IMG/VR virus record: IMGVR_UViG_3300013094_000128
Location: 1-38,704 of that record
Direction: 5' to 3' (one strand)
Origin: a virus
DNA: 38,704 nt
The translations under genes and the position numbers were made by a program. Below are positions 2,665 to 33,548 of the stretch, piece by piece. Every line of letters starts with the position of its first letter. Within the stretch, counting starts at the first letter, position 1. Under the pieces are notes generated by a model. The model did no database searches. It had not been told where the DNA came from and was given only the letters and a program-made list of their open reading frames with translations.

Positions 2665-3073
2665 ATCCTACTTTAATCGCAAATTCAGTCTGGAGAGGAC
2701 CGCCATCTTTGCCGGTAACTTCCTGCCGATCTTTGTAAATCTCAGGCTTTTTACCTTTAAGTAAAAAAATAAGCAAAGTATCTGAATATTCTTGAACATA
2801 GCCAACCAATGATCCACCTTGGTAAACCGGCTTTTTGTATCCATGAAATGCTCTGCGCTGAGCTTCGTCTTCAAGAAGTTCGATACCGATTTTAACTGAT
2901 TCGTCAAATGCCGATTTAAACTGACTATCCTTTTGTAACCAATCGTATATAGTTCTTCTAGCTACTTTGGCTTTCCGGCAAGCCATGGTAATATTGCCAG
3001 TTTGTTCGAGCTGGGTAAGGAAAGATTTTTGTTGCACCTTTCTGCTTCTGGAGTCTTTTTTTAACGTGCTCAT
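2633..3073 (-). CDS. terS: terminase small subunit
   Basis: A 146-residue protein with an N-terminal helix-turn-helix (about residues 20-50: FLTQLEQTGNITMACRKAKV, then RRTIYDWLQKD), followed by helices and a conserved small-terminase pattern (ELLEDEAQRRAF, then LIFLLKGKKPEIYKDR). This matches DNA-recognition subunits of phage terminases. The C-terminus overlaps terL by 32 bases. The first ten residues are strongly basic. Role: recognises the packaging site and regulates TerL. Confidence 0.88.
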   Translation of the reverse strand: MSTLKKDSRSRKVQQKSFLTQLEQTGNITMACRKAKVARRTIYDWLQKDSQFKSAFDESVKIGIELLEDEAQRRAFHGYKKPVYQGGSLVGYVQEYSDTLLIFLLKGKKPEIYKDRQEVTGKDGGPLQTEFAIKVGYGSKTEDSEV

Positions 3074-3248
3074 TGTTTCAGGCCCTTTATATTGTGCAAT
3101 AGTGCAAATTGACTAATTGAAAACATTGCAATTATCAATAATCAATTAGATGCTTTTGAATAACATATTTCTGTTTTTTATCGAAACCGGTGCAATAATC
3201 TATGCTTATGCGTTATATGCTTTACAGCATAAAGTTAGATGAAAATTA
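3074..3248 (-). promoter_or_regulatory. intergenic region before terS, possible late-gene control region
   Basis: This 175-base A+T-rich gap is the largest non-coding break in the left 7 kb and sits directly upstream of the packaging genes. It contains two GTGCAA copies 8 bases apart (3094-3099 and 3102-3107) and a small hairpin (ATGCT, loop TTAC, AGCAT) near 3217-3231. No convincing Bacteroidota -33/-7 pair is visible. A late promoter or operator here is a positional guess. Confidence 0.25.
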
Positions 3249-30983: not shown

Positions 30984-31703
30984 GTGAAAGCAACAGATAA
31001 AGAAAGATTTATAAAAATGGTTGAAGCTCTTTTGAAAAGCGATAGTCAGCTTACTAGCGGAAAAATTGCAGAAAGAATGGGAGTTAGTGCTGCTTTATTT
31101 TCAAATCATCTGAATCCAAAACGCCCAATTCCTGAAAAGTTTATTGAGGATTTTATTTCCGAATTTTCCTTAAACAGGGAATTTTTTGATACAGGTATTG
31201 GAAACCCGTTAACAAATTCTGTTTTGAATGATGTGACAACTCCATATATAAAAAGGTCAGATATTGTTGTTAACCATAAAACAAACCGTCGGAAAGAAGG
31301 AACATTGATTCCATTTTATAATGCAGATTTTATGGCTGGAGTAGCAGAGAGCTATTATGAAGATGAAACCATTTACCCTGAATATTTTATGGACGTGCCG
31401 GAATTTTACGGGTGTACGGCTTTTAGGGCCTACAGCGATAGCATGGAAAGCAAAATCAGGTCAGGCAATATTCTTTTCGGCTCAAAGGTGGAAGACTGGA
31501 AAAGCCATTTGGAGTTTGGGCAGATTTATGGGATTACCTGCACAGATGGGCGACGGTATCTAAAATACATTCGTCGAAACATAATGGATGATCATTACTT
31601 CTTATTAAAAAGTGAAAATTCTAATTATGACGATTTTACCATTCCAAAAGAGAAAATTAATAACATATGGTTAATTGAGGGGTGGTTTATAAAGAACTCT
31701 TAA
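30984..31703 (+). CDS. phage repressor, HTH plus S24/LexA-type peptidase domain
   Basis: 239 residues, start codon GTG. N-terminal helix-turn-helix (SGKIAERMGVSAALFSNHLN, about 25-44). C-terminal S24 domain: catalytic Ser in AYSDSMES (S153) and Lys in RYLKYIRR (K194). A possible self-cleavage Ala-Gly lies at residues 118-119 (FMAGVAES). This is the CI/LexA architecture: it dimerises, binds the operators beside it to keep early genes silent, and is inactivated by RecA-stimulated self-cleavage after DNA damage. Cleavage is expected from the family, not shown. Confidence 0.88.
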   Translation: MKATDKERFIKMVEALLKSDSQLTSGKIAERMGVSAALFSNHLNPKRPIPEKFIEDFISEFSLNREFFDTGIGNPLTNSVLNDVTTPYIKRSDIVVNHKTNRRKEGTLIPFYNADFMAGVAESYYEDETIYPEYFMDVPEFYGCTAFRAYSDSMESKIRSGNILFGSKVEDWKSHLEFGQIYGITCTDGRRYLKYIRRNIMDDHYFLLKSENSNYDDFTIPKEKINNIWLIEGWFIKNS

Positions 31704-31714
31704 CATTTAAAATT

Positions 31715-32083
31715 ATGATGGATACACCAAAACTGACACCGGAAGCTAAGCGCCTGCGGATAGTATATGAAGAATGTAAAGCAGCCGGCCTGGTTAGAAA
31801 TTCCTCTGAGTTTGCCGAAGTGTTAGGAATTGATCAGGGCAGTTATTCAAAAATGAGTAATGGCATTTATCCGGTTAATTTTTTAGTGGTAAAAAATATA
31901 TGCTATAAACTTGGGTACTCCCCTGCTTGGTTTATTAATGGAGAGGGTCGTCGCAAAACAGACAAGGAAGACGTAAAGCTAGTCACCGAAGTATCAATGC
32001 TCCGATCGGAAATTGATATTATTAAAAATCTGTATTTAAAATTACAGGCTCGTATGGCTGGTTACGAAAAAGAATCAATTTAA
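31715..32083 (+). CDS. XRE-like HTH regulator with a coiled-coil tail
   Basis: About 122 residues from the ATG at 31715; an in-frame start at 31682 would overlap the repressor gene by 22 bases. HTH around residues 27-55 (SSEFAEVLGIDQGSYSKMSN, then YPVNFLVVKNICYKLGY) with SPAWFINGEG, a common continuation in Bacteroidota phage regulators, and a C-terminal coiled coil (LRSEIDIIKNLYLKLQARM). It is co-transcribed with the repressor. Possibly a second lysogeny regulator or an int/excision regulator. Confidence 0.75.
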   Translation: MMDTPKLTPEAKRLRIVYEECKAAGLVRNSSEFAEVLGIDQGSYSKMSNGIYPVNFLVVKNICYKLGYSPAWFINGEGRRKTDKEDVKLVTEVSMLRSEIDIIKNLYLKLQARMAGYEKESI

Positions 32084-32120
32084 AAAACCACAAAAACTAC
32101 ACGAACATTTTTATAAAAAA

Positions 32121-33548
32121 ATGCCTATAATTGCAACGCAAAATAGAAGCATAAACGCGATTGTTGATGATATTTTGTGCCTGAATTCGAGTTCGAGTCT
32201 CTCTTCGGGCACCATCACAGATGTACTGGAAGGCGTTTTTTCGCCTTCCACAAACATTTCACAAACATTTTCGAATACTGCAGCTGCTTTGAATTACCGA
32301 CCTTGTAAGCTTTATATGGGTTGCTCCAAAAAAGCAAACAAACCTGATCTTTCCCGGCAATGGTTTGTTTATTATTCTTACCGAAATCCGAACACAGGTA
32401 AGATGGAGCGCCAGCCGCCGATCTACCGAGACATCAATACTTTTGACACAATTGCTGAGCGCAAAGAATATGGCAAAGCACTAATCAATATATACAACGA
32501 ATTATTACGTGCAGGCCTTTCGCCTTTTGAAGAGTTTGTTAGTAAAGAAAACGGGTACCTAAATAAAAACATTATCAGCTGCTCTGAGCTGTACCTTTCG
32601 GAAAAAAAGAAATCACTGGCGCCAAAATCCTTTGCATCATACAAACAGCATGTAGATTGGTTTATTGACTGGATCAAAGAAAATCGATTATCCCATTTAA
32701 ACATCGATCAAATTAAACGGCACCAGGTAATGCAATTTTTATCTGATTACCGTGAAAAATCTGAAACAGCAGCTGCTGCAGCGCGGCCTTCCGAAAAACG
32801 CAAGCCTGCCAGCAACCGTCAAATCAATAATATCAAAGACAACATCATCACTTTCTTCAATTATTTCAAAACCAATTTTGAAGACGAGATAACCAAAAAC
32901 CCGGCAAAAGGAATTAAGGATTTACCCCATTTAACCCGTGGCAATAAGGCATATACCGATGCTCAAATAAAATTATTAAAGCAGCTGATGTTGGACCATA
33001 ACCCCAGGATCTTAGCATTCTGTGAAATGGTTTATGAAAGCTGCACCCGGCCACACGAAGAAACACGGTTTTTAAAAATTGCCGATTTGGATTTTGATCA
33101 GAACAGAATTCACATCCGGCCAGAGCTTTCAAAAGAAGGCAGAAGCGAATGGATCCCCATGAGCTCAGTATATATGGCTCGCCTTAAAGAATATGTAAAA
33201 GGGTATCCGGATGATCATTATCTTTTCAGCGTCGATCGTCATCTGGGAGCTAATAAATTTAACCGAATAAAACCCGGGCCACTTGTTCCCGGACCAACGC
33301 CGATTGCAGAATGGACGCTGCGCGAATGGTATAAAGCAATAAAGAAAATGGCAGGCCTCGACGAGACCTGGACCATATATAGTTGGAAACATTCTTATTG
33401 TGTCCGGGCATACCTGGATACTAAAGACGTTTATTTTATTCAAATTAAATGCCGGCATACTGATCTTTCAGTTACTTGCAAGTACCTGCGTAATCTGGGG
33501 CTATTTGTTGATTTAAATATGATCGCCGACAATGTTCGAAGTATTTAA
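32121..33548 (+). CDS. int: tyrosine recombinase (phage integrase)
   Basis: 475 residues. SAM-like core-binding domain around 150-255 and catalytic domain with R310 (ESCTRPHEE), H424 (YSWKHSYCVRA), H446 (CRHTDLSV) and nucleophile Y455 (CKYLRNLG), the set seen in Bacteroidota integrases. Conserved sequence begins near residue 60 (PCKLYMG); the first 55 residues look unlike protein (Ser-rich NSSSSLSSG) because they cross the tRNA-like attP core. The start in the free phage is ATG 32121 with an A-rich leader; in the prophage a later start (TTG 32289 or ATG 32316) may be used. Confidence 0.9.
   Translation: MPIIATQNRSINAIVDDILCLNSSSSLSSGTITDVLEGVFSPSTNISQTFSNTAAALNYRPCKLYMGCSKKANKPDLSRQWFVYYSYRNPNTGKMERQPPIYRDINTFDTIAERKEYGKALINIYNELLRAGLSPFEEFVSKENGYLNKNIISCSELYLSEKKKSLAPKSFASYKQHVDWFIDWIKENRLSHLNIDQIKRHQVMQFLSDYREKSETAAAAARPSEKRKPASNRQINNIKDNIITFFNYFKTNFEDEITKNPAKGIKDLPHLTRGNKAYTDAQIKLLKQLMLDHNPRILAFCEMVYESCTRPHEETRFLKIADLDFDQNRIHIRPELSKEGRSEWIPMSSVYMARLKEYVKGYPDDHYLFSVDRHLGANKFNRIKPGPLVPGPTPIAEWTLREWYKAIKKMAGLDETWTIYSWKHSYCVRAYLDTKDVYFIQIKCRHTDLSVTCKYLRNLGLFVDLNMIADNVRSI
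32189..32214 (+). other. probable attP core resembling the 3' end of a tRNA gene
   Basis: Reading right from 32189: GAG (T-stem end), T-loop TTCGAGT, T-stem CTCTC, acceptor strand TTCGGGC, discriminator A, then CCA. All lengths are exactly those of a tRNA 3' end (loop 7, stem 5, acceptor 7). The 5' half of a tRNA is absent and the two outer T-stem pairs are broken, as expected where phage sequence replaces tRNA sequence. Integration at the matching host tRNA would restore the tRNA with int directly downstream, a common arrangement. Confidence 0.7.
32228..32249 (+). other. perfect hairpin next to attP
   Basis: GGAAGGCG, six T, CGCCTTCC: an 8-bp perfect stem starting 14 bases after the tRNA-like CCA and inside the int reading frame. 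After integration it would sit just behind the restored tRNA, where it could end or trim the tRNA transcript or shield int from read-through. No T-run follows it. Confidence 0.5.

Follow-up and report, generated by a model that had tools for sequence, protein, structure and literature searches.

Attachment sites within integrase genes

According to the accessible text of a recent review, recombinases whose own gene is disrupted by their action are confined to archaea, and their maintenance is a paradox (PMC8371274). In the SSV-type suicidal integrases, the att site lies in the int gene and the N-terminal part is split from the C-terminal catalytic part (PMC8371274). The same arrangement is found in the DNA analyzed here (the window), a viral record 38,704 bases long that lacks terminal repeats. 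The review assigns PF16795 to the SSV-type group (PMC8371274), whereas the Pfam scan of the window returned PF00589 and PF02899 only. Moreover, the window derives from a bacterial phage, the part removed from its integrase would be a predicted disordered tail, and the predicted fold and an internal start would stay in place. The Myxococcus phage Mx8 also has attP within int and its protein is changed by integration, but there the 3' end and the C-terminus are altered (PMC6070905), whereas in the window the 5' end would be lost together with the start codon and the genes upstream of it. In the mycobacteriophage BPs, attP is located within a protein-coding gene that belongs to the lysogeny switch, and integration alters its product; it is the repressor that is cut, at its C-terminus (PMC4557955), while in the window the repressor-like genes remain whole and int is cut. 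Pleolipoviruses likewise have a coding unit over attP that exists in the circular form only, although they are archaeal and their attP-spanning ORF starts near the end of int and is separate from it (PMC7911831, PMC13107129). A link between the att region and int expression has been reported for KplE1 intS (PMC2951348) and for Pcirc of ICEclc (PMC2892462, PMC9286271). In KplE1, attL overlaps the int promoter (PMC2951348), and ICEclc has an outward-facing promoter at the element end (PMC2892462, PMC9286271), whereas the window involves the coding frame itself. Islander already allows integrases that extend over attP, naming Mx8 and SSV (PMC4383910). In the open-access literature that was searched, as far as its accessible text goes, no description of a bacterial integrase losing its 5' end through integration was found. 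We propose, with a probability of roughly 0.74, that attP of the window phage lies in the 5' coding part of int, and that integration switches the start of the integrase (Int), its N-terminal tail, and probably its level.

The integrase gene and its upstream region

The long ORF of the window (Table 1) encodes a tyrosine integrase, with matches to PF00589 (E 3.8e-10, above the cut-off), PF02899, and the PHROG integrase annotation. The best solved-structure match to the Int fold was lambda Int (1z1b). Box II of tyrosine integrases is usually HxxR, and many integrases carry a GH pair. Between residues 420 and 455 of the long Int (about 33378-33485), box II is Y-S-W-K, and the position where many integrases have GH is occupied by an RH pair; Y420, K423, R445, H446, and Y455 were invariant across a 15-row alignment. 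The two repressor-like genes 5' of int overlap each other, and the HTH gene ends 37 bases upstream of the int ATG. Both end upstream of attP, so attP is not within a repressor gene. The att core is bracketed by the two arm-type repeats. The scan for sigma-70-type promoters found 7, compared with 11.8 expected.

Table 1. Coordinates of the integrase gene, the att core, and neighboring features in the window
Feature	Position	Strand	Remarks
CI/LexA-like S24 repressor gene, 5' of int	30984..31703	+	PF00717 E 2.6e-8; PHROG transcriptional repressor E 7.5e-18
HTH repressor-like gene	31682..32083	+	PHROG transcriptional repressor E 4.1e-8
Left arm-type repeat	32088..32111	+	83% identity to 32248-32271; similar repeats in L008
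Long integrase ORF, 475 aa	32121..33548	+	Spans attP; ATG 32121 and frame conserved in L008
int start codon and 23 pre-core codons	32121..32190	+	dN/dS 0.20 vs L008
att core, 22 bp	32191..32212	+	Identical to 3' end of host tRNA-Leu(CAG)
Hairpin directly 3' of core, within int frame	32227..32250	+	z -3.3; L008 hairpin z -3.9
Right arm-type repeat, within int frame	32248..32271	+	Partner of 32088-32111
Short integrase of 419 aa from internal TTG	32289..33548	+	Aligns to start of relatives, e.g., L002; TTG kept in L008
Alternative internal start, next in-frame ATG	32316..32318	+	Absent from L008

The att core and the host tRNA

The first-pass annotation had seen a tRNA 3' end in the integrase gene. 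This element is present but begins three bases further on than was stated, with the T-loop TTCGAGT at 32192-32198, the T-stem CTCTC at 32199-32203, the acceptor strand TTCGGGC at 32204-32210, and A at 32211. The core is in frame with the integrase ORF, where it occupies codons 24-31 of 475. The nearest integrase in the genome collection (L008, 76% identity) belongs to a Mucilaginibacter MAG, and its upstream region has the same core, likewise in frame. This MAG also carries a tRNA-Leu(CAG) that ends in the exact 22 bases (L013, 173-257). A search for host tRNAs with this 3' end detected the exact 22-mer in 99 of 149 genomes of the genus, and 29 of the 30 loci scanned were tRNA-Leu(CAG), the thirtieth being a tRNA fragment. 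These counts point to tRNA-Leu(CAG) as the attB, and we infer its use by the window phage from the identity of the core and from one MAG. The earlier view of the core as the attP of a tRNA-integrating phage is thus matched by a host tRNA, while two of its details have to be corrected. The 5' acceptor given as GCCCGAA is GCCCGGA in the host, and the CCA does not belong to the host tRNA gene; the host DNA diverges after GGGCAC, so the CCA of the phage appears coincidental.

ARAGORN detected no whole tRNA in the window, which is the outcome expected of an attP site. The 23-base tRNA end gave no stretch when it was scanned against the viral contigs. No lysogen of a window-type phage was found, and the genomes with two cores (G701, G754, and G759) held tRNA genes or stray tRNA fragments. 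Stray 3' ends of tRNA-Leu(CAG) without the tRNA were observed in L210 (about 3040-3061), adjoining another partial tRNA-like stretch, and in L214 (about 3147-3168); they are probably att remnants of other elements. In the host, tRNA-Leu(GAG) lies closely 3' of tRNA-Leu(CAG) in L013, L211-L213, L215, and most of L180-L209, and integration at tRNA-Leu(CAG) would separate it from any shared promoter.

Recurrence of the frame crossing in related elements

Relatives of the window integrase were found in Bacteroidota, not in archaeal elements, and in prophage relatives a tRNA or tmRNA gene is often located immediately upstream of the integrase gene. Few relatives were obtained when the window or L008 integrase was compared with the viral contigs; the tmRNA-type and Ser-type alignments recovered 6 and 12 viral-contig loci, respectively, a single genome scan gave 4 loci, one of them close, and for the genus of G027 only 2 genomes were searched. 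The W motif was found by script in 26 of 31 loci adjoining a tRNA or tmRNA. From the tRNA end to this motif, the int frame was free of stops at 19 of these 26 loci, against 1 of 52 for the two other frames.

A second copy of the tRNA end was searched for in 25 prophages and found in 19, from which attP was rebuilt by joining the left part of attR to the right part of attL. With five natural sites (window, L008, L079, L149, and CRP6), 24 att sites were available, although the rebuilt cores of G259, G096, G286, and G713 comprise 15 bp only. The search for attR gave none for G686 (L009), G692, G693, G423, and G761, and for G696 only its own attL; these were left out of the 24, as were elements in which attR was not sought or lay off the contig (such as L002, L010, L011, L022, L074, and L147), L083 (judged by eye), and L007.

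The int frame was open through the core at 21 of the 24 sites. An ATG lies in frame upstream of the core at 17 sites, and 2 more use GTG or TTG, the GTG start having a 4-base overlap with the preceding stop. In the +1 and -1 frames, the core was open in 9 of 48 cases and an upstream ATG occurred in 0 of 48, and with shuffled flanks around the real core only 0.85 of 24 sites would be expected to combine an upstream ATG with an open path. The crossing of the core by the int frame is therefore more than chance, and the placing of the tRNA end in frame within the 5' part of int by the first-pass annotation holds well beyond the window, with frame and upstream start together at 19 of the 24 sites. 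The long start is located 8-46 codons upstream of the core, most often 16-27. The reading frame of the tRNA end differs among elements and is always the one in phase with int. Besides the window, the crossing can be read without any joining at the natural phage sites L008, L079, and L149. On the other hand, no upstream start was present at 5 of the 24 sites (G606a, G629, G401, G606b, and G713), and the natural site L083 has a stop between the tRNA-like core, judged by eye, and int.

The 24 sites are not independent, as six tmRNA-type elements are close kin. By our reading of the integrase tree there are about eight crossing lineages, and the crossing state requires only two changes on the tree, some long branches of which are of unsure place. 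The targets across these lineages are tRNA-Leu, tRNA-Ala, tRNA-His, tRNA-Ser, and tmRNA genes. Genes on the same strand are located 5' of int in the window, as they are in most of a set of 12 att regions. Ten upstream proteins, taken from 7 of these regions, were scanned, and 8 match transcription-regulator families. In the tRNA-Ala elements L027, L149, L151, and L152, the tRNA holds an ATG in the int frame, so that in a lysogen a start codon could come from the restored tRNA. In G606 (L114 and L129), a tRNA-Met end occurs twice downstream of a single integrase, the copies being separated by about 260 bases, which suggests stacked insertions.

Proposed switch of the integrase upon integration

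We hypothesize that in the circular phage int would be read from ATG 32121, behind the repressor and HTH genes, and on through the core to the enzyme proper. Upon integration into tRNA-Leu(CAG), the tRNA would be restored and would have the body of int behind it. Since the core lies inside the frame and the repressor and HTH genes lie upstream, integration would leave the start codon, 23 codons, and these genes at the far (attR) end of the prophage. The first-pass annotation had expected the transfer of 25-30 codons; the position of the core gives 23, and the upstream genes would remain there as well as the start codon. The lysogen would produce only the shorter Int, from the internal TTG at 32289, on whatever transcript arrives. 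The level of Int would probably be high for integration and low afterwards. The sequences themselves show the identity of the core, the crossing of the frame and its recurrence in relatives, the gene order, and the internal start, together with a predicted fold. The scheme further supposes translation of the long form, an operon of the upstream genes and int, and a change in the level or direction of Int, in line with the integration-coupled recombinase switch suggested earlier, which would be realized in this form.

Hairpins behind the tRNA end

Another explanation, which we consider possible but doubtful, is that the frame is kept so that ribosomes hold open a hairpin or putative terminator behind the tRNA end, the peptide itself being useless. 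In the lysogen, an untranslated tRNA transcript would stop there and int would be off. Hairpins of -12.9 kcal/mol or better are predicted between the core and the internal start at 18 of the 24 sites, a strong hairpin being absent at the other 6. Those of G096, G286, G748, and G220, two tRNA-Leu(tag) and two tRNA-His crossers, are terminator-like with a U-rich tail, whereas some hairpins of the tmRNA group may be just inverted arm-type sites. The variable peptide sequence, with a frame and start that nevertheless persist, also agrees with a role for ribosomes. The T-run of the window hairpin is located in the loop and not 3' of the stem, and therefore this explanation is less certain for the window. 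It adds to the proposed start switch more than it competes with it. Terminator-like hairpins with a T-run running straight into the int ATG were also observed in the non-crossers L089, L092, and L114.

Combining the start switch and the hairpin, it may tentatively be suggested that these phages form a self-cutting bacterial class, in which int would be the last gene of a repressor operon, the hairpin would be held by ribosomes, and recombination would drive a switch of form and expression without a dedicated regulator. In the circle, synthesis of long Int would depend on ribosomes passing first the tRNA end and then the hairpin or terminator. The start codon, the operon, and the ribosomes would then be removed together, the hairpin would shut int off, and short Int would be left for excision.

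Constraint on the N-terminal extension and the internal start

It is rather unlikely, in our view, that the integrase always starts from the internal codon TTG 32289, with an accidental frame upstream and its own promoter downstream of the core. Such an open frame could come from tRNA and arm-site sequence, both poor in stops. Relatives align from residue 57 onward, and the RAP44 integrase is annotated from behind the core. In the AF2 model, residues 1-56 had pLDDT under 50 and a confident fold was predicted from about residue 57 (mean 77.8, 15 sequences). Moreover, internal start codons are conserved: of the 9 tmRNA-type loci where the motif was found, which are close kin, 8 have GTG and 1 has TTG, while GTG makes up 15% of the other Val codons in this comparison; the tenth locus of the group, L026, was unmatched by the motif script. 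Against an accidental frame stand the upstream ATG with open path in the int frame only, far above the shuffled expectation, and the reading frame of the tRNA end, which varies by element and is each time in phase with int.

The selection tests bear on the same question. Window and L008 align without gaps from the ATG to the integrase body, and the N-terminus is partly conserved. In the pre-core codons, where dN/dS is low (Table 1), protein similarity was higher than when the same substitutions were placed at random (P 0.0009), and dN/dS was 0.24 in the 12 codons after the core. No sign of protein constraint was seen at the arm-site codons, and the similarity test did not reach significance when the 26 codons 3' of the core were taken together (P 0.12). 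The extension read in the two other frames had dN/dS of 0.86 and 0.91; enrichment at third positions was not significant by itself (P 0.13). A second pair, G748/G220, had dN/dS of 0.18 before the core, whereas the third, G096/G286, had 1.36, which counts against constraint. The RAP44/CRP6 pair was left out because its sequences are too similar. Between groups, the sequence of the pre-core peptides is mostly not conserved. Chance read-through as the origin of the extension, considered because relatives start at residue 57, was overturned by the L008 comparison together with the frame control. With the pre-core codons constrained in two pairs out of three, the results are consistent with the proposed start switch, in which the long form would be used in the circular phage.

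In a lysogen at tRNA-Leu(CAG), the int frame opens just 37 bases before the core end, and the candidate starts are a TTG within the tRNA and the internal TTG 32289. The predicted fold from residue 57 and the conserved internal start suggest that nothing essential to the enzyme would be missing from the short form, and the lysogen can probably still make it. This argues for a switch and against suicide. The silencing of int after integration, as formulated in the first-pass annotation, goes too far in view of the conserved internal start and the intact predicted fold; it is also at odds with a native Riemerella island described below.

Riemerella phages RAP44 and CRP6

RAP44-related phages of Riemerella carry a distant homologue of the window integrase (22-23% identical). 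The published att repeat of the RAP44-type island is 19 bp (PMC9745183) and was located at 2821-2839 in CRP6 (L004) and at 2791-2809 in RAP44 (L144). This core falls within an int frame that is open, and an ATG precedes it by 24 bases. RAP44 and the 50K island thus resemble the window in having the att core within the int frame, an overlap that is not mentioned in the accessible text of the paper on the RAP44-type island (PMC9745183). The annotation of int differs between the two phages, starting before the core in CRP6 (L004, 2797-4113) and behind it in RAP44 (L144, 2839-4083). In a phylum-wide search, the CRP6 integrase matched in one other genome only, and tRNA-Ser as the target in Riemerella is putative. 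According to the available parts of the same paper, a plasmid with the RAP44-type int, promoter, and attP integrated and lost excision, whereas the native Riemerella 50K island excises spontaneously (PMC9745183). The lost excision is compatible both with the proposed switch and with a missing excisionase, because the construct lacked other phage genes. True suicide, in which integration inactivates Int and excision needs the integrase of a related phage in trans, as proposed for SSV-type elements, would agree with the removal of the start codon and upstream genes and with the behavior of this plasmid, but is very improbable given the intact predicted fold, the conserved internal start codons, and the spontaneous excision of the native island.

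Significance

Contrary to the archaea-only view in the accessible text of the review (PMC8371274), several lineages of Bacteroidota phages appear to cut the N-terminus of their own integrase. The long form is easily overlooked because it is absent from prophage sequences, and annotators already disagree over the int start in the Riemerella phages. The idea is open to testing, as RAP44-type phages are cultured. The predicted fold that survives behind an internal start would offer a way out of the paradox, and the loss of the 5' end would give integration a simple physical means to turn down its own recombinase.
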